Source: Atriophallophorus winterbourni (Eukaryota > Platyhelminthes > Trematoda > Plagiorchiida > Microphallidae). From it: 64,000 nt of DNA. Numbering within the stretch: position 1 is the first letter of the stretch; every line of letters begins with the position of its first letter. A model generated the notes under the pieces. The model ran no database searches and had not been told where the DNA came from. It saw nothing but the letters and a program-made list of their open reading frames with translations. Of this stretch, positions 1-64,000 are shown one piece after another. The stretch spans positions 62,001-126,000 of the forward strand of contig JACCGJ010020169.1 in NCBI GenBank assembly GCA_013407085.1, read 5' to 3'. The position numbers and the translations under genes were made by a program.

Positions 1-839
1 TCGTCTAGTGCCTTGGTCCAATCCTCGAACGTTGTAAGAAGGTTAGATAAACAGCAACGACCTCTTCGAAAACCGTGTTGCGCTGCGGTCAAAATATTTT
101 GGTTTTCGAAATGTTCTCTTATGCGCGCAGTCACAATGCGTTCCATTAATTTGGAGATCACCGGAAGTAACGTTACCGGTCTATAGTTTGCTGTATCTGA
201 ACGGCTACCGCCTTTATAAATAGGAGTTATCATCCCTTCTTTCCATTGCGGTGGTATTTTTCCTTCATTTAAGCTGAGATTGAATATGCGAGTGAGAGGA
301 GCAGTCAAAGCAACGCGACACCTGCGAAGTACGGCGGGGGTAATTTTGTCGGCGCCAGGGGACTTCTTTTCGTTTAGTCGACAAAGTTCCCGCCCAACCA
401 TGTATTCGTTGATAGTCATTTCACTTAATAATTCGAAATGTGGTGAACTTGATGAAAGTTGATATGGTATAAAACGCTTGAAATTGAAGACAAATGAGTA
501 AAACGTTGCTAAAGCGTCGGCGTTATCTTGGGCAGTGTGGGTCAATCCATGAGGTGTTAGTACAGATAATACACCTGGTTTGATCTTTGATCGTTCATTT
601 ACTATCTTGTAGAGAAGCTTAGGATTCTTTTCCATTCTCTTAAGCAAGTTCCATTGGAATTGCATGCGATCTTCTCTTACAAGAGTAGTGACTTGATTCC
701 TTATCTTACAGAATCGTTTCCAAGTTTCTTCCGTACCAAACTTCTTATGAGTTACCCAAGACTCTCGCTTAACAGCTAACCATTTCTTCGTTCTACTTCG
801 AATAACAAACTGGTTGTTGTAGCTGCATTTGTGTGGTAC
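1..839 (-). pseudogene. LINE A ORF2, reverse transcriptase N-terminal half
   Basis: Translating the minus strand from 839 down to 1 gives about 279 codons with no stop. In order it shows the RSRTKKW basic motif that follows the endonuclease in this family, NPKLLYKIVNE, KKSPGADKITPAVL, WKEGMITPIYKGG, ANYRPVTLLPVISK and QHGFRRGRCCLSNLL. These are the early RT blocks of CR1-type LINEs. The YLDISKAFD and FADD blocks lie beyond the left edge. It is in a different frame from the upstream endonuclease, so one frameshift near 835-845 separates them. Otherwise this stretch is open. Confidence 0.85.
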
Positions 840-1763
840 AAAAATCGAGTTTTCGTAAATCTTCGAGATTGAGATAATTTGGAAACGAATTGTAATATGA
901 GCCAGGATCCATTGAATCAAACTCATGAGTGTGTGCATCCCGGAGACTGATATTTAAGGATTCAAATTGTATTTTCCTTATGACTTTCGTCTGTTCACAC
1001 AATCGTTCCGCACTACATACATAATCAAACAAAAGCACAACATGATCACTTTTCCCCAGTGGTGCCAGGTATTGTATACTTTCTACTGCGGTTGCCTCAA
1101 GCGTTAAGACAAGGTCAAGGGTTGAAGGTTGGTCAAGACCCTGCCAGCGAGTTGGCTGGTTAACGTGGTTGTGCAGTGAAGCAAATTCTATAACCTCCTT
1201 GAATTTATGTTTAAACGAATGCAGGGAGTGCTCACCTCTCGAAAGCAGATGCGGGAGATTAAAATCGCCAATGATTAGCAATTGCATAGTCTGGCATCTT
1301 GTGATGTGTTGCAATGATTCGATGAGCTTATCATTGTATGAGCTTTCGGATGATGGTGAGCGGTAGATGATGCCGATCGTACATTCATCTCCATTGACTA
1401 GTTTTACTGAACACCATATCGTATCAGGAAGGCTGAGGTCAGGATGATCGATGACGTTACACTGCGCTAAACGTTCGTGATAGTAGACTGCAACTCCACC
1501 ACCGGATCTTCGATCACGATCGCGACGAAGTAGTGACATTTTTGGAATCAAAAGATCAGCATCAGTCATGCAGGGCTGGAAACAAGTCTCTGTAACTGCA
1601 ACCAAATCGGGTGAAAGTCTATCACAAAGCTCACATAGTTCAGCTAATTTGTTTGTTAAACACTGAGCATTTGTATACATGCACCTGATCGTATTTGTCT
1701 TACACAATGTCGAATCGTGTACTGTAGCTATTGGTCCGACTCGCGATGAGCCGGACCATTTTC
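793..1763 (-). pseudogene. LINE A ORF2, APE-type endonuclease
   Basis: The endonuclease nicks target DNA to prime reverse transcription in LINEs. Visible motifs are YTNAQCL (metal-binding Asn), VTETCF (catalytic Glu), GGGVAVYYHERL, GIIYRSPSS, IIGDFNLPHL, STLDLVLT and KSDHVVL. No in-frame ATG is needed at the start, because the frame is open back through the hairpin at 1733-1757, where the N-terminus reads WSGSSRVGP. The other copies have MSxSxRVGP-like residues at that point. This fits entry by -1 frameshifting from ORF1. The frame ends at 793 because of a shift, and the RT continues in another frame. Confidence 0.85.
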
Positions 1764-2505
1764 GTTTTTTGGGGTAACATTTGAACTGTCAATAACAAGA
1801 TTGCAATCAGGTTGTGGTCGCGATGTTTCTCTGGGTTTCAGCGAGGGAACGCGCTTGGGCACACTTAGTCTCACGTCTGGTGGAAGTTTAGAGCGGTTGG
1901 ATTTCCAGTCGGTGTTCATAGCGATAGCCATTTCAGTCGTTAGAAAAGTGATTTTCAGAGGACTGGGCCCATTGCCTTTGTAGTTGGAGGATCTAGGTAT
2001 TCTAAAAGTATCTACGACAATGGAATTACGAGATCCAATAGCATCGGCAATGTATAAGCATTGCTTCAAATCATGTTGCTTTGATTCCGATGTTGATACT
2101 ACATAAACTTTTTCGGGGACACCGAGGAATATTAAACTACGTGAAGTATAGTGGTCTCGACGCGTGGATTGACCTTTCCTTTCCCACCAAGGTTTGTCGG
2201 CTTGTACTCGGCAGGTCAAACCGGGACAAGCATCGAGTAGATACGCATTGAGGATGACTTCTTCCATTTCAGATTTATTTCGCAATGTCACCCTTAATAG
2301 GCGCGGCCGGTCTACGTGAGGGGAGTCTTTATGCCGGGTTAAGCGCGTCATCGATGTAGGTACCAAAGCTTTCAAGCCCATGTGTGTACAGAGCTTAGTC
2401 CATTCATTGATCTCATGTGCTTTTCTTGCTGAGAAAAGTGAATCTGTCGATTCCGGGATATTTGTGCAGATTACACTGAGAGCGATATCTGTCTTAGCGG
2501 TAACA
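1728..2505 (-). pseudogene. LINE A ORF1, C-terminal tandem alpha/beta modules
   Basis: This is the second part of ORF1, in the -1 frame relative to the zinc-finger part. It starts within LSVICTNIPES. A first module runs through RKAHEINEW and PRLLRVTL...EEVILNAYLL, ending near the conserved PWWERK. A second module starts at RSLIFLGVPE and runs through HDLKQCLYIADAIG, DTFRIPRSSNYKG, PLKITFLT and a final DVRLSVPK. The two modules follow the same order of hydrophobic strands and helices. The frame ends at TAG 1728, next to the frameshift hairpin. RNA binding is inferred from the family, since LINE ORF1 proteins coat their RNA. Confidence 0.75.
1733..1770 (-). promoter_or_regulatory. Predicted -1 ribosomal frameshift signal, LINE A
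   Basis: On the minus strand, ORF1 codons read CCA AAA AAC, which gives the slippery heptamer AAAAAAC (GTTTTTT at 1764-1770 on the plus strand). A 7-nt spacer follows, then the stem GTCCGGCTC/GAGTCGGAC with the 5-nt loop ATCGC. The stem has one G.U pair and can extend by one or two pairs. The ORF1 stop TAG is at 1730-1728, just past the stem. ORF2 is in the -1 frame. The layout is the same as in LINEs B, E, G, K and P. Confidence 0.75.
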
Positions 2506-6006: not shown

Positions 6007-7125
6007 ATGTCTAGACCTACGAAAACTACGTGTCAAATTGGCAGAAAGGGGGTAAGTGTGAAATCGAAAGTAGTGATGTGTTATATGTGCTCTACTAAGA
6101 TACACACTAATTGCGATGAACTTTTGACTAACGAGGCAGTAGTCGTTATTAATAATCCTGAAATTCCTAGTGTCTGTTATGTGTGCAGCGTCTGTAGAAC
6201 AAAGTCGTTAAACGGCACCGGGACCAATGCATCACAATCAGGAGACCTGGAAAATCGCGTCAAATACTTAGAGAACAGTTCCCAAAAATTTGAGGAAACA
6301 TTGAAGTCGATAGTAAATGCCCACAATAACTCATTAAAAAGTGAAATCAACCCGAACCCAACGCTACATCCCGTAACTCCACAAGTTACTCCGTTACTTA
6401 AGGAGAATTTGCGGGAAGCTAAACAGCTGAGTAATGCTAATGCAAGCTGCGACTCAGATGTTAATCAGATTAGAAAGTCGAAGGGGCGTGTACTGACTGT
6501 CCACCAGCAGAATTCCTCTACTTCAAAAACTAATAATAAAATGAAAAGAACTTTGATGAATCTCAGTGTAATTTGCACCAATGTGCCTGAGACATCGGGG
6601 ACACTTTTCTCTAGTAGAAGAACTCACGACATTGAACAATGGTACCAATGGTGTTCAATAATGGATATGAGCTCGATACTGCCCGATTCAATAACCCGCC
6701 TAAGTCGGCACCCCAATTCTCCTCATCTCGATGAACCACGTTTACTGAGAATAACTTTCAAAAGCCAAAAAGAGATGGAAGACGTTCTGTTAAACTCTTA
6801 TTTGCTACGTACATTCTCACAGACTAAAAGTCGCATACATGCAGATATTCCGTGGTGAGAGAGAAAAGGTAATTTAAACAATGGGAAAAAATGTGGCCAA
6901 CGCAGTGTTGTTCTTCTTGGTGTTCCCGAACACACTGACACTGCTTTAGGAAGTGAAATACAGCACCACGATTACAAACAGTGGCTCTACGTTGCCAATA
7001 GCATCGGGGCTCACGAGTCAGTGGTGGTGGACACTTTTAGAATACCTCGTTCACCAAACTATAAAGGTGACGGGCCAAAACCTCTGTAAGTAACATTTTT
7101 ACCGAAAGGTATGATGGAATCAGTT

Positions 7126-7371
7126 GGCCAATCAATTTAGCCCGATGTTAGCCGCACAGCACAGAAATACTGCACGATTGCACATCCGTGCTTATTGCAC
7201 ATCCGTAGTGAGCTCCATGCTGAAACACGCTGGAGTCTCACTACCATTTCTATTTCTTTCTATTTCTTTTTTTCATATCTGTCTAGGCCTGGGAAACCTG
7301 ACATTATCTCAGCCCACGTGCACTCTCTGACTGTGCGGCACTTTGCCTGAACCAGGCTTGTGCTTTCACAC
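7126..7371 (-). mobile_element. Short retroposon (family M) with 15-bp target duplication
   Basis: A 246-bp insertion in LINE B ORF1, flanked by the identical direct repeat ATGATGGAATCAGTT (7111-7125 and 7372-7386). Removing it together with one repeat rejoins the ORF1 reading frame. Its reverse complement resembles parts of 58211-58390 and 59520-59700: CCTAGACAGATATG, AATAGAAATGG and GATTGCACATCCGTG in some orientation. I see no clear pol III box, no inverted termini and no coding motif. The long target duplication points to LINE-type priming. The orientation given is that of the match and is not firm. Confidence 0.7.
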
Positions 7372-7523
7372 ATGATGGAATCAGTTAGGGCTAACTGGAA
7401 AACAAACTATAGGAATCTCCCGAAGGATGTCAGAATGAGTGATCACAGACTTTCTGCGCCTTCTAATAAACTACGGCTTCCACAATCAGACGAGACTCCG
7501 ATTAGAAACACTGTGGCAATCCT

Positions 7524-7560
7524 AAAAAACGACACATGTCCGACTCTCGAAGGGTCGGAC
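7524..7560 (+). promoter_or_regulatory. Predicted -1 ribosomal frameshift signal, LINE B
   Basis: ORF1 codons CTA AAA AAC contain the heptamer AAAAAAC (7524-7530). A 7-nt spacer (7531-7537) follows, then stem GTCCGACTC (7538-7546) with GGGTCGGAC (7552-7560) around the loop TCGAA. There are nine pairs with one wobble. The ORF1 stop TAA follows directly at 7561. A -1 slip enters the frame that holds the endonuclease. That frame also contains an ATG at 7536 next to the stem, so reinitiation is an alternative. Confidence 0.8.
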
Positions 7561-9626
7561 TAATAGACGAGCTTTCAGCCCCATCACTGTATACGAAAAC
7601 CACAATCAATTGCCTATATGCAAACGCACAATGCCCGTTAAACAAACTAACTGAACTGAAGGATCTCTGCAATCAGCACTCACTCGACGTCATAGCAATA
7701 ACTGAGACATGGTTCCAACCTCGCGTGAGCGATCGCGAGCTCTCTATTCCAAACATGACCCTGTTTCGGAGAGACCGCTTAAAAACAGGTGGTGGAGTAG
7801 CTGTTTACCACCATGACCGTTTATACTGTACGGTAGTTACAGATACTGAACTCGATCTGGAAGACAGTTTATGGTGCAACTTGAAGCTCAAATCAGGCAA
7901 CAGTTGCATCGTTGGTGTAGTTTACCGTTCACCATCATCATCGGATGCGTATAACGAAAACCTCTTGAAAGCAATGCAGTACGCCGGAAAACAGCGCAAT
8001 TCGCAATTGCCGATTATGGGAGACTTCAAACTGCCTCAACTATATAACCGAGTAGATCATCCACCCCTATCCCTAGACTACAAATTTCGCGAACTGTTCG
8101 ATTACATCCCCTTGTATAATCATGTTTTCGATTATACACGACAACGAAATTTGCAACAGACTCTGTTCTAGACCTAGTCTTAACGTCCGAAGCCACAGCC
8201 GTTGAAGATGTTCAGTATCACCCTCCGCTGGGTCGAAGCGACCACCTCGTTCTGCTATTTCAATACGTGTGCAACGCCAGTAGAATTGTAAAGCAAACAA
8301 AACAAAATAGAAAAGTGAATTACATTGGTTCGATGAAAACAATGGTAGCTTTCGATGAACATAATATAAATTTCAGTGATCCGGACTCGCATTGCACAAC
8401 CCTGACAGATTACATAATCAACATGATACATTTCAATTCTAAAAATGTCCCGAAACATAATAGCAAAGAACCACAATTCAGTATTCGCAGTAGGACTAGA
8501 AAATGGTTGACAAATCGAAATTTGGCATGGGCTATTCACAGGGTCTCCAGAACTGATTCGACGTGGACAAACTTTCGCGAATTGCGGAATCAGGTCACAA
8601 ATCTCATTCGAGAGGACAAACAATATCACCAGCTTCAGCTGGCGGTAAGAATGCAGCGAAATCCCAAACTGCTTTATCGAACTGTTAACAACACTACGAA
8701 GCTGAAACCCGGATCATGACAGATAACGGACTAACTGATTCTGTTCCGGAAACCGCTAACGCTCTAGCCAGTTTTTATTCACGAGTTTTCACCCCCAAGG
8801 ATAAATTACAACCATCAGAATTGTCAGCACCAATTGTGCCGGAGACGATATGTGATATATGCATCAGTTCGGAAATAGTGCAGCACCACCTACGCAAGTT
8901 GAATATCAACAAGTCCCCGGGAGCTGACGGAATCACACCTGCAATCCTAAAGTTATGCGGCAGTCAACTGTGCGAACCACTTTGTGATTTATTTAATCAC
9001 TCCTTGAGGGAGGGTGTTGTACCTAATGACTGGAAGAGAGGAATCATAACACCCATCTACAAAGGTGGAACTCGTTCTGACCCAGCAAATTACCGCCCTG
9101 TTACACTCCTTCCAGTGATCTCAAAAATTATGGAGCGAATTGTGTGCGAAAGAATTGTGAGTCATCTCGAAGCCCAAAACTTGTTGTCCGAGAGCAATAT
9201 GGATTTAGGAAGTCTCGTTCTTGCTTGACTAACCTACTGGACACACTGGATGACTGGACGCAGGCAGTGGATAATGGTGGTTGCGTGCATGCGTGTTACT
9301 TGGACATATCAAAGGCGTTTGATCGCGTGGACCATTCTATACTGCTGCGCAAGTTGCACGATGTTGGTATTAATGGGTGCCTTCTTGTCTGGCTGAGAAG
9401 TTACCTTCTTGATCGCAAAGCAACTGTACGTATCGATGGTGTGATGTCTGGGGAAATCGAGACCACTAGCGGTGTTCCACAAGGTTCGGTACTTGGTCCG
9501 GTTCTCTTTTTGGTCTACATCAACGACCTTTCGAAACTTGTCACAGCCAATATGGTTCTCTTTGCGGATGATGTTAAAATTTGGATGCGAATCGCTTGTT
9601 CCGAAGCAATCGCTTGTTCCGAATGA
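7530..9626 (+). pseudogene. LINE B ORF2, endonuclease and RT up to FADD
   Basis: The endonuclease motifs are CLYANAQC, ITETWF, RDRLKTGGGVAVYHHDRL, VYRSPSSS, IMGDFKLPQL (GDFN has become GDFK) and a frameshifted LDLVLT...RSDHLVLL after 8171. The RT follows: SRTRKWLTNR, a stop at 8717-8719, NINKSPGADGITPAIL, WKRGIITPIYKGG, a frameshift near 9190, GFRKSRSCLTNLL, CYLDISKAFDRVDH, SGVPQGSVLGPVLFLVYINDL and VLFADDVKIW. The catalytic aspartates are present. The sequence breaks just after FADD, where LINE C has inserted, and resumes at about 11827. At least three frame breaks show this is a dead copy. Confidence 0.85.
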
Positions 9627-25441: not shown

Positions 25442-26187
25442 TCTGTACCAACATACAGGAGTCCAGCGAGACACTTCTGGTGAATAGACAACGATACGAC
25501 CTAGAACAATGGTCCAAACTTTTTACGTTGATGGGGTTGGATACGATAAAACCTTCAGCTGTTACACGTTTGGTTCGCCACCAAAGCTCCCCACACTCTG
25601 GCGAAGCCCGGCTACTAAAAGTAACACTAAACAGTGAGAGGGATATGGAGATTATTCTTTTGAATTCTTACTTGTTACGTGACATACCTACGTGCAATAC
25701 TCGAATCTACGCCGAGATACCCTGGTGGGAAAGAAAAGGAGGCGGAGACGTTCGTAAGAAAATCAATGAGCGCAGTCTGATCCTTCTAGGCGTTCCAGAG
25801 GCTACCAGTACAACAGAGGCCGCAAAACAACAACAACACGACTATAAACAGTGGTTATACGTTGCAGAAGCGATTGGAGCACGCGAAAGTGTTGTCGCGA
25901 ATACCTTCAGGATACCGAGGTCATCAAACTACAAAGGCGATGGACCACCCCCTTTAAAACTCACTTTCCTAACTTCTGCTATGACATCCTTTGTCAGACA
26001 AAATTGGAAAATACACAGAAAAAATATACCAAATGAGCTCAGGCTCAGCATACCGAAGGTTGCCTCCGAAACACAAGCTGCAGCGACGCCGTGCGAAGAC
26101 ACGGACAGACTGAACTCGGAATTTGTTTCAAAAAACTGCAATGGTCCGGCTCTCAGGGGGTCGGACATACAAACATCATCCGCGTAG
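25442..26187 (+). pseudogene. LINE E ORF1, two tandem alpha/beta modules
   Basis: Open from SVICTNIQES in the -1 frame relative to the zinc-finger part. Module 1: VICTNIQES, RYDLEQWSKLFTLMGL, TRLVRHQSSPHS, ARLLKVTL, RDMEIILLNSYLL, TRIYAEIPWWERK. Module 2: SLILLGVPE, QHDYKQWLYVAEAIG, ANTFRIPRSSNYKG, PPLKLTFLT, MTSFVRQNWKIHRKN, LRLSIPK. The two share the same order and several residues at matching places (V/I-PE, D-x-x-QW, R-x-x-R, PxLK/R-x-T-x). This suggests an internal duplication of an RRM-like fold, as known in other LINE ORF1 proteins. It ends past the frameshift hairpin at 26187. Confidence 0.75.
26129..26165 (+). promoter_or_regulatory. Predicted -1 ribosomal frameshift signal, LINE E
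   Basis: ORF1 codons TCA AAA AAC give AAAAAAC at 26129-26135. A 7-nt spacer TGCAATG follows, then stem GTCCGGCTC (26143-26151) with GGGTCGGAC (26157-26165) around the loop TCAGG. There are nine pairs, two of them wobbles. ORF2 is in the -1 frame and has no ATG at the start of its conserved region, so ORF2 would depend on frameshifting from ORF1. Confidence 0.8.
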
Positions 26188-28995
26188 GCTCGCTACACAC
26201 GAAAACCACTGTTAAATGCCTATACACAAATGCACAGTGCTTGCGGGACAAAATCGCTGAATTATCCCATTTTAACGCTCAGTTTTCTGCTGACATCATT
26301 GCTATTACCGAAACATGGTTCTACTATCAGGTGAATGATTGCGAGCTGTCACTTCCCAACATGATCCTACTTCGACGAGACCGTTCAAGATCAGGTGGTG
26401 GAGTTGCTTTGTATTACAACGAGCGTCTTCAATGCACAGCTGTACCTGACACAACGTTTGAGCTAGAGGACACCATGTGGTGTAGCCTTCGCTTGGAAAC
26501 TGGAGAGAACTGTATACTTGGTGTGATCTACCGCTCGCCAACTCTTCCGATGCCCACAATGAAACGTTGTTACAAATGATGCGCAACGCTGGAAACCTTA
26601 GAGGATGCCAATTGTTAATAATGGGTGATTTTAACCTCCCACATCTCTACACCAAAAGTGTGCATACCCAGCAATCCCTTGAGTACAAATTCCGTGAGAT
26701 TATCACTTTCACTCCCCTATACAACCATGTCCGTTCATTCACTCGACAAAGGGGACTCAATGAACCATCAATTCTGGATCTGGTTTTAACCTCCGAAGCA
26801 ACAGCAGTGGAGTCAGTGCAGTATCATAGTCCTTTGGGGCTAAGTGACCATCTTGTGTTGTCCTTCGAATTCGGGTGCAACGCCCGAAGGGCGTCGGGCG
26901 ACGTTAAGTTCATCAGGAGAGTCGATTACTTCGGCCTTCGCGGTGCCATTACGATTATGGAGGAAAAACATCTCGATCTTACGAATGCAGATACTCATTG
27001 TTCTAGTCTGTTAAGTTATATCGGTACAAAACTAGACGAAAATTCTACCTGTGTTCCCAAAAGGAAATCAAGAACATGTTGCTTCAAACTCCGAAGCCGC
27101 ACTCGGAAGTGGATAGCCATGCGAAATTCCGCATGGGCTGCACATAAAATAACACCAACAGACGCATCTTGGGAACACTTTCGTAGTTTTCGTAACAAGG
27201 TGACGTCCCTAATTCGAGAAGACAAGCAATATCACCATTGTAAGCTGATCGACCAGATGGAACGACATCCTAAGTTGCTGTACACCATCGTAAACACCGC
27301 GACCAAGGTTAAACCAGGTGTATTTCCTATCGAGACAGAGAACGGACTGACTGATAATGTCAAGGATACAGCTGATGCCCTAATATCATTCTATGCGCAA
27401 GTATTTTGTCCAAAGAACGTGTCAACGCTGACGTCTTTGCCGCACCCACTACAAGTCGGATGCCTTAGCAACATCGAGGTAAATCCTACGGTTGTGCGAA
27501 AGCATCTACGCCGGCTGAACGTTCGCAAATCACCAGGAGAGGATGGAATAACACCCGCTGTTCTGGAGTCATGCGAGCTGGAGCTCTGTGGCCCACTAAG
27601 TGGTCTATTCAGGCACTCATTGAATACGGGAACCGTACCAACTCAATGGAAAACCGGTGTTATCACACCAATCTACAAAGGGGGCAATCGTTCTGATCCG
27701 GCGAATTACCGCCCCGTGACGCTTCTTTCAGCGGTTTCTAAAATTTTGGAACGCCTGGTGTGTGAACGACTTGTTGAACATCTCGAAAACCATCAGCTAA
27801 TAACTTTCACACAACACGGATTTAGGAAAACATATTCATGCCTGTCTAACTTGCTCACGACTCTAAATGACTGGACGCAAGCACTAGACCAAGGGTGTTC
27901 CGTCCATGCCGGTTACTTAGATATATCTAAAGCATTCGACAGAGTGAATCACTCCTTACTGCTTCAGAAGCTGCAGAATGTTGGCGTCATCGGAAACCTA
28001 CTAACATGGTTCACAAGTTACCTGTCTGGACGCAAAGTAAAAGTCAGAATAGATGGTGAAACTTCTCGAACAATTGAAGCCACGAGCGGAGTCCCTCAGG
28101 TTTCGGTTCTCGGTCCGATACTGTTTCTCTTATTTATAAACGATCTACCGAACTTACTAGCATGTAAGCTTGTTTTATTCGCAGACGACGTAAAAATCTG
28201 GACGAAGGTCAACTCTATCGAGGACTGTCAAGTTCTGCAAGGAGATTTGAATAAACTGCACCAGTGGTCAATCCAAAACAAACTGCCATTTAATTTCCGC
28301 AAGTGCAAAATGTTGCAAGTCGGAAAACCTTTTCCCTTTCCCTATACACTTGGCAGCCACCCGCTTGAATGGAGTACATCACAAAAAGATCTCGTAATCT
28401 TGGTGTCTGGCACTTTGAAGAACAGCCTACAGTGCGAAGCCGTCTACAAGCGTGCGTGCAGCTTGCTAGGTTTACTGAACACTGCATTTTCTGGACGTTT
28501 CCCACCACACTCACTCGTGAAATTACTAACCTTACTCATCCTGTCGTCTATGACTACGCTGTACAAGCTTGGACCCCATGGATGGAAAAAAAAATCTCGC
28601 TCCTCGAACGAATTTATCACAAGGCAACCAAAATTGTTACCGGATTGAATAATTTACCCTTTGAGCAGCGACTGACCAGACTTGAACTGTGCACCCTCGA
28701 GCGCAGACGTATCCTACACGACCTCACTCTGACATATCGAATCATCTACGCGAAATCCCACCCTCTCAAACACCTCTTAAAGTTTCGTTCCGTTGTTCCC
28801 ACACGCAGCCACCCTTTGACCCTTCAAATCCCTCACTCACGATTGAATTGTCGTCGTCACTTCTTCGCTGTTCGTGTATGCTTCCTGTGGAATAGCTTGC
28901 CGATAGATATTGTTACCTCATCGAACGAGCACATCTTTAAACAAAGGTTACGAAAACTTATGTTGAGAACTACTGCGTTGGCCCCTACCTATTGA
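26136..28995 (+). pseudogene. LINE E ORF2, endonuclease-RT, two frameshifts
   Basis: The endonuclease (to about 26575) has CLYTNAQCL, ITETWF, RSGGGVALYYNERL and GVIYRSP. After a frameshift near 26567-26579 come LLIMGDFNLPHL, SILDLVLT, GLSDHLVL, SRTRKWIAMRNSAW, RKSPGEDGITPAVL, WKTGVITPIYKGG, HGFRKTYSCLSNLL, GYLDISKAFDRVNH, TSGVPQVSVLGPILFLLFINDL and VLFADDVKIW. The invariant Gly of PQGS is Val here (28099-28101), which should harm RT activity. A second frameshift at about 28520 leads to YAVQAWTPWMEKKISLLERIYHKAT and CRRHFFAVRVCFLWNSLP, ending at 28995. Confidence 0.88.
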
Positions 28996-49090: not shown

Positions 49091-49405
49091 TAAGACGGCG
49101 GTAGCGAAAGTCGAATAGATTGAGACTTGCAAGTATAAAGCCACACCACCACCATTTCGTTGACGATCGTTCCGTAATAGTATCATGTTTGGGATCGGCA
49201 GTTCCCTTTCATTCATACAAGATTGAAACCAGGTTTCAGTCACAGCGATGAGGTCTGGTGAGTATCGTTTGCACAGCTCGGTTAGTTCAGCCAATTTATT
49301 AAACAAACTTTGGGCATTCGTATAGAGACACTTTATTGAGCTTTTAGCGTGTAACAACGAGTCAGTAACAGTATTTATTGGTCCGACGCTCTCGACGTCG
49401 GACAT
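49079..49405 (-). pseudogene. LINE G ORF2, endonuclease N-terminus
   Basis: Begins ATG at 49405-49403, within the edge of the frameshift hairpin, as MSDVESVGPINT. It continues CLYTNAQSLFNKLAELTELC, DLIAVTETWF, LPIPNMILLRNDR and GGGVALYL, where fragment H interrupts it. The metal-binding Asn and catalytic Glu are present. The ATG lies in the -1 frame relative to ORF1 and overlaps its end, as in LINE B. Confidence 0.83.
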
Positions 49406-49417
49406 TTGTCGTTTTTT
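49381..49417 (-). promoter_or_regulatory. Predicted -1 ribosomal frameshift signal, LINE G
   Basis: Minus strand: ORF1 codons TCA AAA AAC hold AAAAAAC (GTTTTTT at 49411-49417). A 7-nt spacer (49404-49410) follows, then stem GTCCGACG with CGTCGGAC (49381-49388) around a 7-nt loop: eight perfect pairs. The ORF1 frame ends CCAATAA just past the stem. The eighth pair is G-C here but T-A in LINEs A and P, a compensated change. Confidence 0.78.
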
Positions 49418-53643: not shown

Positions 53644-54081
53644 TATACTTTTAGACTGCCTTCCTCAGCAAAATACAAAGGTAATGGGCCACGTCCATTA
53701 AAAATAAACTTCCTAATGAGTACTATGGTTGATACTGTACGTTTCAACTGGAGAAGCTGGAAACACAATATCCCAAAAGGTGTAATCCTTAGCGATCACA
53801 TAAACACTGATATAAATGCAGCCCATTCTGCATTAAATACTGTCAGGATCGATGAAGCCCTATCAACTGAACCAAGAAACGAATCTTCAGCTGGGACACA
53901 AAATCAGCAATCGAACGCAAAGCCACCCCAAATGACTCCCGAGAGTGGACTGAAGCCAGATAAAGAAATCTTTTTTGGCCAAAAAGAGGACTCAATTTGC
54001 GCCTCTCAACCTGAAACGACCGATTTGCTACTTAACTTGTCAAAAAACAGAACAGTGCCTACTCTTCCAGAGTCGGCGTGA
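53644..54081 (+). pseudogene. LINE K ORF1, end of second module
   Basis: Continues ORF1 after the insertion: TFRLPSSAKYKGNGPRPLKI, NFLMSTMVDTVRFNWRSWKH, then GVILSDH and a long polar tail to NRTVPTLPESA, with TGA at 54079-54081. The stop overlaps the frameshift hairpin. The tail is longer than in LINEs A, B and E. Confidence 0.78.
54042..54077 (+). promoter_or_regulatory. Predicted -1 ribosomal frameshift signal, LINE K
   Basis: ORF1 codons TCA AAA AAC hold AAAAAAC (54042-54048). An 8-nt spacer follows (7 if the outer U.G pair forms), then GCCTACTC (54057-54064) pairs with GAGTCGGC (54070-54077) around the loop TTCCA: seven pairs and one mismatch. ORF2 is again in the -1 frame. The single mismatch fits decay of a formerly perfect stem. 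Confidence 0.65.
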
Positions 54082-54357: not shown

Positions 54358-57043
54358 TCAAGATTCAAGATTCAAGATTTTATGGTTGAAAAAGCAATTA
54401 CTTTACAATAACCATGCAGTTGAACTATAGGTACAAGTGTATATGTGTGTAGAAAAATGTCAAAATCAAAATAATTCTGGTAACGATAGATTATAAATAG
54501 TTCGGGGCATAATTTGGATTGGCTCTCAGGAAATCGTCTAGTTTTAATTTAAATATAGAAAAAGTGTTTGAGCTTACCAAATCGGCTGGCAGGGAATTCC
54601 AAGCGAAACAAATACGCACAGAATAAAAATACCTGCGACAGTTCTGATTGGAGTGGGGTATTTCCAACTTGCAGTTGTGACCGCGGTTGTTGCTGGATGT
54701 TCGTCGGTGAAATAGTATATCCAAAGGGTGGGAAACACTGTTAAGGATTTTGAATGTGAGGAGGAGGTCGGCTCGCAGTCTCCTTTGTGCAAACGTCGTC
54801 AGCTTCAGTTTACTTAGCCGGTCAGCGAATGGTAGGTTTTCGAGCCCAATGACCAACTTTGAGGCTCTGTGGTGTATGCGATCCAATAGTGAAATGTCTT
54901 TTTGAAGCCATGGAGTCCAGGCTTGTGAAGCGTAATCAGTAAGCGGGTGTATGTACGTGTTCATCATCAGAGAAAAACATCTCTGGGAAAAACGTCCGAA
55001 TATCCGCCTTAACACACCGAGCATCCGAGACGCGCGTTTGTAAACGGCTTCGCATTGTAGACCATTTTTCAGGCTACCGCAAATCCAGACACCCAGGTCT
55101 TTTTCTTGTTTGGTGTACTCCAGGATATTGTTGCCAAGCTTGTATGAATGAGAAAAGCTTAGCACACGACCAATGTGCATGATTTGAGACTTCTGCATGT
55201 TTAGCGGTAGGTTATTTTCAGATAACCACATTTGCACAGCATCCAAGTCACTTTGAAGCACACTGCAATCCTCGGCAGTGCTGATTTTTTTCCATATTTT
55301 TATGTCATCTGCGAACAGAACCATCTTACTGCCGCGTGGTGTTGGCAGGTCATTCATATAGATCAGAAACAGTATCGGTCCGAGCACGGATCCCTGTGGA
55401 ACACCGCTAGTGACGTCGATTTCCTTCGATAGTATACCGTCAACTCGAACCCGTATATGTCTTTTGCTGAGATAGTCTCGCAGCAAGTCATACAGTCCTC
55501 CAGCAATACCGTGTTTCTTTAGCTTGTTCAGCAGTAAGTTGTGATCAACTCTGTCAAAAGCTTTAGAAATGTCTAAGTAGCATGCATGAATACTGCCTCC
55601 GGCGTCCACTACACTAGTCCAGTCGTCCAAACATGTCAGCAGATTAGTTAGACAAGAGCGGTTTCTGCGAAATCCGTGCTGGGCAATTGTCAAGAGTCCG
55701 TTCGATTCCAGGTGGCGCACTACTTCTGCAGTGATTATGCGCTCAAAAACCTTCGAAACCGAAGACAGCAATGTCACAGGCCTGTAATTTTTTACTTCAG
55801 AACGGCATCCACTTTTGTAAATTGGTGTAATTATTCCCAGCTTCCAATCAATTGGTACCATTCCGACTTGAAGCAATTCGCTAAACAGACGAGATAAAGG
55901 TCCCGAGAGCTGCGCATGACAGCTTTTGAGGAGCTTCGGTGAAATTTCGTCTGGTCCCGGAGATTTCTTTGCGTTTAACTTTCTTAAGTGCTGCGCAACC
56001 ACCATCGGAGTAATTATTATTTCACTCAGAGTGGGACGATCATATCGAATGCTTGGTTCCTGTTCGTGCTCTGCGGATTTCGGTGCAAATACTCCAGCAT
56101 AAAAGTCTGCTAACAAATCAGCGGTTTGTTCAACGGATTCTGTGAAGCCGGACGAAGTTTTCAGGGCAAAGACTCCTGGTTTAATATTTGTTCTATCGTT
56201 TACAAGTCTATACAAGAGCTTCGGATTCTGGTGCATCTGAGTAATCAATTGCGATTGGAACTCTTGTTTATCATCTCGAATTAAGCTGATAACTTTGTTT
56301 CTCAGTCGTGTAAATTGTGCCCAAGAATCAGCTGTGTTGGTAGCCTTGTGAAACTCCCACGCTACTGCCCTTTGTTTCATCCACTTTTTGGTCCTGCTAC
56401 GTAGCTTAAATTTGTTACGTCGAGGATTTTTCTTCGGGACGAGGTTTGAATGTTTCTCTAATATAAGTTTCAGGTGTTGTAGGAGAGAGCGCCAATGACT
56501 GTCTGAATCGGAATAATCCAACTGTATGAGACTAATGCTTTGAAGCTCTGCACAAAGGGTACGGTAGTTTACCTTTCTGAAGCATTTCATTCCGTCAAAT
56601 TTGCGCCTAGCACTACAAACGTAGTAGAATTCTAGGACAACGTGGTCGCTCCGTCCGATCGGCGGTTTATAGATGATAGTTTCTACAGCGGTAGGATCAG
56701 ATGTAAGTATCAAGTCCAAGGTAGACGGCCTGTCAGCTCCCCTCATACGAGTAAATCCTTTAACGTGGTTATAGAGGGGTGTGTAATCCAAGACTGCTCG
56801 AAGTTCGTGTTCAAATGTCTCTGGTGGATGATCATCACGGTTATATAGCTGAGGAAGGTTGAAGTCTCCCATTATCAAAATTTGAGTGTTATATCGCGTT
56901 GTTACATATTGCAAAGCAGTAATCAGTTTATTGTTCAGGTCGAGGTTCGCGGTTGGAGAACGGTAAATCACTCCAATAACGCACTGGTCACCAGAAGTAA
57001 GAGTTATAGAACACCAAAGCGTGTTGGGTATATCCAGATGCAA
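54358..57043 (-). mobile_element. LINE L, 5'-truncated, recent, nested in LINE K
   Basis: Minus strand. The 3' tail (AACCATAAAATCTTGAATC and two more units in reverse complement) starts at 54358, and the 5' truncation point is at about 57043 inside the endonuclease. The terminal stem is ATGGTT/AACCAT (54382-54387 and 54410-54415). LINE K endonuclease residues flank it on both sides. The whole remaining ORF2 is open, so it is the youngest-looking LINE in the window. Confidence 0.9.
54491..57043 (-). CDS. LINE L ORF2, intact RT with part of the endonuclease
   Basis: 850 uninterrupted codons. The endonuclease part lacks the Asn and Glu blocks and starts at IPNTLWCSI, followed by GVIYRSPTA, ILIMGDFNLPQL, STLDLILT, GRSDHVVL. 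The RT is complete: SRTKKWMKQRAVAW, NAKKSPGPDEISPKLL, WKLGIITPIYKSG, NYRPVTLLSSVSK, HGFRRNRSCLTNLL, CYLDISKAFDRVDH, TSGVPQGSVLGPILFLIYMNDL, VLFADDIKIW. The thumb and C-terminal blocks are KDLGVWICGSLKN, WTPWLQKDISLLDRIHHRA, CRRYFYSVRICFAWNSLP. Catalytic aspartates are present. Loss of the nuclease active site by 5' truncation means it cannot move by itself, although the RT may be functional if expressed. Confidence 0.92.
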   Translation of the reverse strand: MHLDIPNTLWCSITLTSGDQCVIGVIYRSPTANLDLNNKLITALQYVTTRYNTQILIMGDFNLPQLYNRDDHPPETFEHELRAVLDYTPLYNHVKGFTRMRGADRPSTLDLILTSDPTAVETIIYKPPIGRSDHVVLEFYYVCSARRKFDGMKCFRKVNYRTLCAELQSISLIQLDYSDSDSHWRSLLQHLKLILEKHSNLVPKKNPRRNKFKLRSRTKKWMKQRAVAWEFHKATNTADSWAQFTRLRNKVISLIRDDKQEFQSQLITQMHQNPKLLYRLVNDRTNIKPGVFALKTSSGFTESVEQTADLLADFYAGVFAPKSAEHEQEPSIRYDRPTLSEIIITPMVVAQHLRKLNAKKSPGPDEISPKLLKSCHAQLSGPLSRLFSELLQVGMVPIDWKLGIITPIYKSGCRSEVKNYRPVTLLSSVSKVFERIITAEVVRHLESNGLLTIAQHGFRRNRSCLTNLLTCLDDWTSVVDAGGSIHACYLDISKAFDRVDHNLLLNKLKKHGIAGGLYDLLRDYLSKRHIRVRVDGILSKEIDVTSGVPQGSVLGPILFLIYMNDLPTPRGSKMVLFADDIKIWKKISTAEDCSVLQSDLDAVQMWLSENNLPLNMQKSQIMHIGRVLSFSHSYKLGNNILEYTKQEKDLGVWICGSLKNGLQCEAVYKRASRMLGVLRRIFGRFSQRCFSLMMNTYIHPLTDYASQAWTPWLQKDISLLDRIHHRASKLVIGLENLPFADRLSKLKLTTFAQRRLRADLLLTFKILNSVSHPLDILFHRRTSSNNRGHNCKLEIPHSNQNCRRYFYSVRICFAWNSLPADLVSSNTFSIFKLKLDDFLRANPNYAPNYL

Positions 57044-60832: not shown

Positions 60833-62028
60833 GTTCTTACTTTCTTAAATGTACTCTATTTCTTTTCACAGTTCCGTGTTGCGTATTCACCTCGTAAGAT
60901 CTTTCACCCGTACGACCACGGACAGTTCCAAGATCCCATTTCTCAGCTCCCGAACGGTTGTATCCAAACCGTATCTCCATCAGACAATTCGGGAAGCTCC
61001 CGTGCACCCTCATCATATACCTGTTTTTCGCGCTCCATGCGCCGTTTTAATTTCTGATTGATGACGCCCCATGAAACGTCATGTCTGGACAGACGGTTGG
61101 TAACAATAGGTATCCTCGTTCTTGTGCGTCTACCCATGAGTCTTTGGGCTGGTGGATGGAGTATTTCTATGTTCCAGAAGCGCTAAAAACGGATTTTCTT
61201 TAGCCTCCAGGCATTTTTTCATTATTTTTTCGCTTCTTTCACTGCCGATTCTGCTTTACCATTCGATTGGCTATGGTAAGGGCTGGACATTTCATGTTTA
61301 AAACGCCATTTTTCTGTGAAGTCAGCAAACTGCTTTGCAGAAAACTGTGGACCTCCATCGGATCTGACACTTTCTGGGATACCATACCTCGCAAATTGAC
61401 CTTTCATTTTCGCCACGATTTCTTCAGCTGATGTGGTACTCAGTTTCTCTATTTCGAAAAAATCGCTGAAATAATCCACCAAAAGTAAATAATCTTTTGT
61501 CGCATGTGAAAAAAGGTCAGCTGCAATATGTTGCCAAAGGCGCTCTGTTATTTTGCGACAAACCATTGGTTCTTTTATTTGGCGGTTCCCGAACTTGTTA
61601 CATATTGGGCACTTGGAGACGAAATCCTTCACTTGGCAACTGACGCCAGGCCAATATACCGTATCCTTGGCTCTTCTAGTGCAACCGTTGATCTCCAAAT
61701 GAGATCGATGTAAATCCTGTAACATCACCTTTCGGGCTGAACGTGGGATAACCAGTCGCTCGCCCCGGAAGAGCAACCCATCCTCAGTTGATAATTCATC
61801 TCGGATTTTGTAATAAGGTCGAATGAGTTCGTCAACCATCGCGATACTATCTGGCCAGCCACTGATTATCTGTTCCTCGAGCTTTTTCATTTCATCATCC
61901 TCAGCCATAGTTGGTCGGATTCGTGGCAACCTGATATCGCTTTCTGCAACATCTGTTGTTTTCCAATCTCTGTTTCCGTCCAATCGATTAGATGAAATGC
62001 ATCCTGACACAACCCGCAACGTGAGCAC
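60833..62028 (-). pseudogene. Ty3/gypsy-type integrase (pol fragment)
   Basis: The minus-strand frame 62028-61222 shows the integrase zinc-binding His/Cys module (LHRSHLEINGCTRRAKDTVY, CPICNKF) and the DDE core: Asp in IAADLF, Asp in VRSDGGPQF, Glu in GKAESAVKEAK. After a shift in an A6 run near 61222 it continues IMKKCLEAKENPF, ALLEHRNTP and SPKTHG, then a TAG. The C-terminal part is DGDTVWIQPFGS, KWDLGTVRGRTGERSYEV and KRNRVHLRK, ending at about 60833. This fits the metazoan gypsy type. No RT, RNase H or protease is found in the window, and the two breaks make it non-functional. Confidence 0.85.
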
Positions 62029-62367: not shown

Positions 62368-62677
62368 ATAAACTATAAAGGAGACGGACCGAAACCTCTC
62401 AGGATTACCTTTTTAACTAGCGACATGGCTGAGTTTGTCAAGTCTGAATGGAAAAAAAGCAAAACGTGCTTTATCGAAAGACATTAGACTTTGTCCACAG
62501 AGACCAAGTACCATGAGTGAGACACACTCGCCACTGGGGTCGGTAGACGGCAGCGTTCCCACCGAAACGGAAGCAATCAATACATCAAAAAACGTAGTGT
62601 GTCCGGCTCAAACCGAGTCGGACCGAGTACATCATACACGGAACAAAATGTTGATTCAAACTGTTGGAGCGCAATAA
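62368..62677 (+). pseudogene. LINE P ORF1, C-terminal end
   Basis: NYKGDGPKPLRITFLTSDMA, EFVKSEWKKK and, after a one-base shift at an A run near 62457, ALSKDIRLCPQRPS. A polar tail leads to INTSKNVVCPAQTESD over the frameshift hairpin. The frame runs on to 62677 and does not stop at the hairpin as LINEs A and B do. Only the end of the second module is present. Confidence 0.75.
62587..62623 (+). promoter_or_regulatory. Predicted -1 ribosomal frameshift signal, LINE P
   Basis: ORF1 codons TCA AAA AAC hold AAAAAAC (62587-62593). A 7-nt spacer GTAGTGT follows, then GTCCGGCTC (62601-62609) pairs with GAGTCGGAC (62615-62623) around the loop AAACC: nine pairs, one wobble. The -1 frame encodes GSNRVGP, which matches the ORF2 start of the other copies. 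Confidence 0.78.
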
Positions 62678-64000
62678 CTAGCCCACAAGTCACACCCTCA
62701 CAAGCACTTACTGTTAAGCCAGATCTGGCATCCCATTGTCCAACCCCTTACCTCATATCACCGATTAATCGCTACACCGAGTCGTATCGATCAAATGTAT
62801 ATATACTAATGCTCATTGTTTAGTCAACAAGCTGGCAGAACTCACTGATATGTGTGTAGAACAGTCCCCTGACCTTATTGCTGTGACGGAAACCTGGTAT
62901 CAGCCCAGTATGACGGTCAGTGAACTCTCAATCCCTAACATGACACTTTTTCGTCATGACCGTGATGGCCCGGGAGGCGGCGTTGCATTGTATTATCACA
63001 AGCGCCTCAATGTTAATATCATTGCAGATACTGATCTTTCACTCACAGACACGCTGTGGCGTTCACTTGACCTGGAATCTGGTGAGAGCTGTACAATTGG
63101 GGTTATATATCGCTCACCAACTTCGACCGTCGATCATAATGATGTGTTAGTTGAAAGACTTCAGCGCATCAGCGCTCGGCCACATGCTCAAATATTGATT
63201 ATGGGGGATTTCAACCTTCCGCAGCTATACTCGAGAAATCAACACCCAATTAACTCACTGGAATACAAATTTCAAGAAGTATTTGATCTAGTCCCCCTGT
63301 ACAATTACGTTTGCAACCACACACGAATGCGAGGGACAGACCGACACTCTGTTCTGGTCCTAGTTTTGACTTCTAACGAATCAGCTATTGAATTATTACA
63401 CTATGAAGCTCCATTGGCACGGAGTGACCATGTGATGCTCGCGTTCGATTATATCTGCGGTGATTCGAGACACAGTGACGAATCTAAAATCATCCGTAGA
63501 GTCGACTTTTGGAGACTCATGGAAGCACTTTGTGAGCTGAATGATGTTCAACTTGATTTTAGTGACTCAAATACACATTATAACTCTCTGATAAACTACC
63601 TTCAGATGCAAATCCAGTCGAACTCTCGATATATTCAGTGGAAAGATGTCCACACCCTCCGTTTCTCTTTTCGCAGCAGAACTAGAAATGGATTTCATTG
63701 AAAATGTGTGCTTGGGTTACACATTGCAATAACGTCACCCCTACATCTTGGTTACAATTTTGCAGAATACGTAACAGAGTCACCACCCCAATTCAGCTGG
63801 ACAAAAAAACAGTACCAGCAACATATGGTGGAACGAATGGAAGCGAATCCGAAGCTATTGTACAAAATTGTGAATGACAGGACCAAAGTTAAACCAGGTG
63901 TTTTTGCGATCATGACAGAAGAAGGTTTGACTGTTACAGTCCAAGAGACGGCGGATGCGCTTGCGTGCTTTTACTCTCAAGTCTACTGCCCCAAAAAGCA
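62594..64000 (+). pseudogene. LINE P ORF2, endonuclease and RT start
   Basis: Open from the hairpin for about 75 codons with a longer N-terminal spacer than other copies. A frameshift near 62820 follows (NAHCLVNKLAELTDMC is readable), then LIAVTETWYQPSM, LSIPNMTLFRHDR, GGGVALYYHKRL, GVIYRSPTS, ILIMGDFNLPQL, HSVLVLVLT, ARSDHVML and FRSRTRN to TGA at 63699. The RT start is frameshifted: MERMEANPKLLYKIVNDRTK, VKPGVFAIMTEEGLTV, ETADALACFYSQVYCPK at the edge. Nuclease residues Asn, Glu, Asp and His are present. Confidence 0.8.

Follow-up and report, generated by a model that had tools for sequence, protein, structure and literature searches.

The endonuclease and reverse transcriptase (RT) of a diverse group of CR1-like long interspersed nuclear elements (LINEs) in the trematode Atriophallophorus winterbourni are very probably produced by -1 programmed ribosomal frameshifting, which would yield a fusion of their two open reading frames (ORFs), ORF1 and ORF2. 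The analysis concerns a stretch of 64,000 nucleotides (nt) (GenBank assembly GCA_013407085.1, contig JACCGJ010020169.1, positions 62,001 to 126,000, forward strand), hereafter the window, together with the genome to which it belongs. Six element copies in this 64-kb window (A, B, E, G, K and P) contain the ORF1/ORF2 junction, and each was inspected on its own strand. Sites, reading frames, conservation and covariation were observed directly. An earlier note made from the window's letters (the sequence-only reading) had proposed that ORF2 is made as an ORF1-ORF2 fusion, and this is supported at the sequence level by an in-phase heptamer, a fixed spacing, a covarying hairpin, a -1 frame in 58 of 60 pairs and the absence of a conserved ORF2 AUG.

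The junction in the window

As the sequence-only reading had stated, AAAAAAC is present at all six junctions in the ORF1 phase AAA AAC, and is followed by a spacer of 7 nt in five copies and 8 nt in K. The hairpin that it described after the spacer, with a 7-9-bp stem and a 5-7-nt loop, is likewise present in all six: best stems have 9-11 pairs and loops 3-5 nt in five copies, while the stem of K contains one internal mismatch. The heptamer of copy E starts at 26130, one base later than the 26129 first given. The window holds 15 AAAAAAC sites on both strands, five of which are followed 5-9 nt downstream by a strong perfect hairpin; all five are ORF1/ORF2 junctions, K failing the perfect-hairpin test through its mismatch. 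In 60 dinucleotide shuffles of the window, heptamer-plus-hairpin sites averaged 0.17, with a maximum of 1. The match in heptamer and hairpin does not come from recent common descent, because the copies have diverged (protein identity by tblastn mostly 41-55%, with extremes of about 32 and 67%). A search of the window against Rfam at gathering thresholds gave no match.

In copies A and E, at least 230 open ORF1 codons lead up to the heptamer and the ORF1 stop lies 13 (A) or 18 (E) codons beyond it; the -1 frame opens shortly upstream of the heptamer and continues into the endonuclease. ORF2 had been placed in the -1 frame in every copy, which is correct at the endonuclease for five of the six but fails for P, where the endonuclease match begins 185 nt past the heptamer, not a multiple of three (computed by hand from tblastn coordinates). 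The remark that four copies lack an ATG in the ORF2 frame at its start was accurate: in A, E, K and P none occurs from the heptamer to the endonuclease motif. B and G have one, located in the spacer.

The signal across the genome

Patterns were counted in the window's own genome, each against its reversed form as a control. AAAAAAC-N7-GTCCG occurs at 2010 places (control 63) and AAAAAAC-N8-GCCGA at 1613 (control 58), with some twenty recurring spacer types among the matches listed. The variant AAAAAAT-N7-GTCCG, which is synonymous in ORF1, occurs at 82 places against 93 for its control and is thus at background level; these ORF1s favour AAT over AAC by 89 to 48. AAA AAC is preceded by a CCA, TCA, GCA or CAA codon, whose third base supplies the first A of the heptamer, and in five ORF1s 289 of 1049 four-fold codons end in A. 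Versions of the heptamer with seven As were found at 149 places (control 10). At one of these (L004/L036; G000:C46:46109-46129), the extra A brings the end of ORF1 into the same frame as ORF2. When sites were selected by their endonuclease, with the heptamer not required, 19 of the 24 alignable sites had the exact heptamer and five a mutated one.

Reading frames were compared by pairing listed heptamer places with listed endonuclease starts (100 places) within 400 nt; a distance from the first A that is a multiple of three puts the endonuclease in the -1 frame. For the GTCCG type, 40 of the 57 heptamer places on contigs C38-C452 pair in this way, at distances of 72, 84, 87, 123, 177, 189 or 210 nt, and 39 of the 40 are multiples of three (the exception is 130). 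The GCCGA type gives 19 multiples of three among 20 pairs from 58 listed places (the exception is 109), which brings the pooled figure to 58 of 60. Among the 100 listed endonuclease places, 60 have an exact site of either type and 40 have none.

Openness was assessed at 21 pattern-selected sites: ORF1 is open for 200 or more codons upstream at seven, the -1 frame for 100 or more codons downstream at 12, and both hold at six; one site (L016) has no LINE frames and another (L025) lacks the hairpin. From ATG to heptamer, ORF1 measures 520 (P1), 525 (P3), 453 (K) or 441 (A) codons, and its stop lies 12-30 codons past the heptamer. L013 is open for 525 codons upstream and 574 downstream of the heptamer; L015 is open for 956 codons from the heptamer in the ORF2 frame, but its ORF1 for only 186 codons upstream.

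Conservation and covariation in twelve representatives

Twelve families were represented by A (L009), B (L015), E (L023), G (window copy), GC (L043), P1 (L011), P2 (L012), P3 (L013), GT (L020), K (L046), X1 (L030) and Z (L055), with L010 standing in for GC in the identity comparison and L053 for X1 in the identity, ATG and fold comparisons. Protein identity around the junction is 12-60%, except for the pairs G-GC, P1-P3, P1-E and P3-A, and some values are depressed by the broken copies GT and P2. In the alignment of these representatives (A3), the heptamer is invariant in 12 of 12 rows, whereas spacer and loop vary. In the 9-bp stem, 96.3% of cells are paired, against 21-48% when the pairing partners are slid, and RNAalifold recovers the same helix. 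Two-sided changes occur in four of the nine stem pairs: the outer T-A pair becomes G-C in K, X1 and Z, and the others include U-A to G-C or C-G near the loop, C-G to U-A and one G-C to U-G. None of 500 shuffles equalled the observed covariation score; eight had at least as many two-sided pairs as observed, and 28 at least as many pair types. In seven of the 12, no other 40-nt fold within about 1.4 kb is more stable than the hairpin.

Five of the 12 representatives (A, E, GC, P1 and P2) have no in-frame ATG anywhere from the preceding -1 stop to the endonuclease. Where there is one, its position varies, namely codon 4 (B, G and P3), 14 (K), 25 (Z) or 34 (X1); in GT the endonuclease motif was not found. 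Family X1 (L029, L030, L041, L053 and L058) has, in addition to the frameshift signal, an in-frame ATG two codons ahead of the endonuclease, where translation might also start.

Proposed mechanism and rival explanations

It is proposed that ribosomes translate ORF1 and that most would pass A AAA AAC and stop 12-30 codons on. The downstream hairpin, acting as a simple stimulator, would block ribosomes, a fraction of which may slip back by one base, AAA AAC re-pairing as AAA AAA; these would continue into the endonuclease and RT to give an ORF1-ORF2 fusion. Frameshifting possibly sets the ORF1:ORF2 ratio, as for retroviral Gag-Pol. We infer the slippage, its efficiency and the fusion as a functional protein from the sequence patterns described above.

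It is very unlikely that ORF2 is instead reached by termination and reinitiation, in which ribosomes finishing ORF1 just after the hairpin would begin again at an ORF2 start codon close by, with help from the hairpin as from the downstream structure of the silkworm element SART1. The ORF1 stop lies 12 to 30 codons past the heptamer, and A, E, GC, P1 and P2 offer no in-frame ATG before the endonuclease; an ORF2 AUG overlapping or adjoining the ORF1 stop, as in SART1, is not the rule, since five of the 12 representatives lack an ATG, six have it at no fixed position and GT is undecided. Reinitiation moreover gives no cause for an in-phase heptamer or for the preference of AAC over AAT. Less likely again is slippage of RNA polymerase or RT on the six As, adding one A in some RNAs and so fusing the two frames. 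The seven-A versions, and among them the L004/L036 place with its single frame, are what it would produce, but extra As are also expected from ordinary homopolymer mutation, and a run of six As is short for polymerase slippage. A covarying hairpin at a fixed 7-8 nt, a final C and a codon phase are needed by ribosomal, not by polymerase, slippage.

That the junction is conserved merely as protein in two overlapping frames, or as a hairpin for RNA binding or packaging, with no frameshift, is extremely improbable. The stem region does encode protein in both frames, and all 12 rows share its CCG/CGG core; however, paired columns covary through amino-acid changes (outer T-A to G-C), loop and spacer are variable, and the synonymous AAAAAAT is at background. 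Decay, in which the -1 offset would reflect old frame-disrupting mutations in dead copies, is next to impossible: many copies are damaged (window copy P; the five of 24 endonuclease-selected sites with a mutated heptamer), but the same offset recurs in 58 of 60 pairs and is found in copies open on both sides (at least 200 codons up and at least 100 down), as at six of the 21 pattern-selected sites.

Several observations weigh against frameshifting and are to be set beside this evidence. No examined copy has both ORFs complete, and dN/dS in 10 pairs of close copies gives weak and mixed signals: window A against L009 shows a mild purifying signal in the upstream 0 frame (dS 0.080, dN 0.027), which is absent upstream in L021 against L023 (dS 0.015, dN 0.020). 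Stem pair 1 is broken in three of the 12 representatives and pair 9 in one, in five (E, G, GT, X1 and Z) the hairpin is surpassed in stability by another 40-nt fold within about 1.4 kb, and there is no pseudoknot signal, since in 12 of 12 the loop is no more complementary to the following 60 nt than in shuffles (lowest shuffle fraction 0.17). AUG starts could operate in some families (X1, K, Z, B, G and P3), and all families share one ancestry within one genome. The invariance of the heptamer is partly due to selection of the rows, as eight families were chosen through the AAAAAAC-GTCCG pattern and one row came from the list of the sequence-only reading; undamaged copies were picked, and the pattern also fixes the GTCCG of the 5' arm, while the 3' arm is in no pattern. 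The AAAAAAT comparison is less open to this bias.

The count of five-A and first-base variants, BAAAAAC-N7-GTCCG, is 1446 against 143 for the control and also seems contrary to conservation of the heptamer. Among the 100 matches listed, 74 have the spacers AAAATCG or AAAAGCG or one-letter variants of them, 14 have LINE spacers and 12 others; the 74 are taken to be unrelated repeats, and the sole place of this type that was read (L016) has no open LINE frames. Since most listed places look unrelated, five-A or first-base variants of the LINE signal exist, apparently as a minority. The abundant, apparently unrelated repeats carry (C/T)AAAAACAAAA(T/G)CGGTCCG and inflate the five-A variant counts.

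Chimeric elements at the junction

Some elements combine an ORF1 of P type with an ORF2 of E or A type in frame, namely the P1 elements (L011, also L003 and L035; L048; L026) and the P3 elements (L013 and L014); window copy P belongs to the P type. P1 matches P0 (L040) at 97% identity up to about 48 nt past the first base of the heptamer, and from there matches E at 98%, starting at E +11. P3 resembles P as far as about +113, beyond which it matches A at 98%, starting at A +20. In both swaps the foreign ORF2 is thus taken from just behind the donor's heptamer (about 11 and 20 nt past its start), with the frame kept and the donor heptamer lost. For P1 the joint was inspected on C45, C89 and C617, where a P-type hairpin is followed by an E-type hairpin in all three; for P3 it was inspected at two places (C143 and C397). 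The pattern is consistent with a modular joint at the predicted frameshift site. We lean towards a wider view, in which one ancient frameshift cassette would serve the whole CR1-like lineage, whose enzyme would be made solely as a Gag-Pol-like ORF1-ORF2 fusion; the cassette would also be the joint at which families exchange ORF1s and ORF2s.

Element identity and comparison with known systems

The 956-codon frame of L015 matches Exo_endo_phos, Exo_endo_phos_2 and RVT_1 and no further Pfam family at E up to 0.1. ORF1 has a PHD-type N-terminus and a conserved central region: a profile of five ORF1s (A4) matches MLL1 PHD3 (E 1.7e-4), single-protein Pfam PHD matches stay below the cut-off, and of four long ORF1s compared with Pfam two match only C1_1, below the cut-off, and two match nothing. 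The putative CR1 assignment fits this domain content (endonuclease and RT in ORF2, PHD-type ORF1), the PHD type being one among several kinds of ORF1 in that clade. PHD-type ORF1s are described in CR1/L2 elements and in fluke CR1 (PMC4120745; PMC8392823, citing Kapitonov and Jurka 2003), which resemble the present elements in the PHD finger, the endonuclease and RT in ORF2, and occurrence in flukes; the word frameshift is absent from the available text of both sources. A DNA pattern scan of viral_contigs in search of outside relatives gave no match, and a protein scan gave 10 pattern matches, none of them a relative.

Retroviral gag-pro and gag-pol -1 signals use A AAA AAC, for example in mouse mammary tumour virus (MMTV) gag-pro. 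The junction described here shares with them the heptamer and its phase, a similar spacer, a downstream RNA structure and an enzyme placed as C-terminal extension of the first protein; it differs in belonging to a non-LTR (long terminal repeat) element, in joining a LINE ORF1 to an endonuclease-RT, and in having a simple hairpin with no pseudoknot signal.

Among non-LTR retrotransposons, a -1 frameshift is stated to be required for ORF2 of Dictyostelium TRE5-A and TRE3-A; their host is distant, the passage concerned gives no slippery site or structure, and the likeness is taken from that description (PMC5911963). Drosophila HeT-A is described as needing frameshifting for gag (PMC5009743), although there it serves gag, in an element without its own RT. 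The means by which two-ORF LINEs translate their second ORF is a long-standing question, and the available literature on L1, SART1 and Zorro3 points to some form of initiation rather than frameshifting: some unusual initiation is thought likelier for mammalian LINE ORF2 (PMC5009743), reinitiation is reported for Bombyx mori SART1 and L1 (PMC5972666), and Zorro3 requires its own ORF2 ATG (PMC1965478). SART1 is, like the present elements, a two-ORF LINE with translational coupling and a downstream RNA structure (PMC5972666), but it uses an overlapping stop-restart site and reinitiation, and no fusion protein is made. In the portions available, the butterfly CR1 frameshifts of PMC1925062 are mutations and PMC12857005 uses the term solely for intactness.

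Among the open-licence papers listed, judged by title and abstract opening, none described ribosomal frameshifting in a CR1-like LINE. The suggestion that the signal could be new for the family thus survives for CR1-like LINEs in that literature, but a -1 frameshift for ORF2 is already stated for TRE5-A and TRE3-A in the part of PMC5911963 consulted, and the signal here therefore adds a variant to a known kind. A LINE group with a retrovirus-style signal would, if confirmed, mean that the Gag-Pol solution is open to non-LTR elements too. The ORF1 part of the predicted fusion enzyme could then tether the RT to its own RNA, and the thousands of natural variants offer material for studying frameshift signals.

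Features of the window

Coordinates of the junction features in the six window copies
Copy	Feature	Positions	Strand	Remarks
B	Slippery heptamer A AAA AAC	7524..7530	+	
B	Hairpin	7538..7560	+	7 nt 3' of heptamer; arms GTCCGACTC / GGGTCGGAC
B	ORF1 region	6007..7560	+	PHD-type N-terminus; broken by stops and an insertion
B	ORF2 start, -1 frame	7524..8171	+	Open from heptamer into endonuclease domain (Pfam match)
A	Slippery heptamer	1764..1770	-	
A	Hairpin	1734..1756	-	
A	ORF1 3' part	1728..2381	-	Open through heptamer; stop just 3' of hairpin
A	ORF2 start, -1 frame	793..1770	-	First in-frame ATG inside endonuclease motif
E	Slippery heptamer	26130..26136	+	
E	Hairpin	26144..26166	+	
E	ORF1 3' part	25480..26187	+	Open through heptamer
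E	ORF2 region	26130..28995	+	-1 frame at start; later frame breaks
G	Slippery heptamer	49411..49417	-	
G	Hairpin	49381..49403	-	
K	Slippery heptamer	54042..54048	+	
K	Hairpin region	54056..54078	+	One internal mismatch; 8-nt spacer type
P	Slippery heptamer	62587..62593	+	
P	Hairpin	62601..62623	+	
P	ORF2 N-terminal region	62772..63995	+	Out of -1 frame relative to own heptamer (later indel)

The window also contains an ORF2 copy without its 5' part (54491-57043, minus strand), with 850 open codons and endonuclease and RT domains, and an integrase fragment (61222-62028, minus strand; Integrase_H2C2 and rve) as found in LTR elements.
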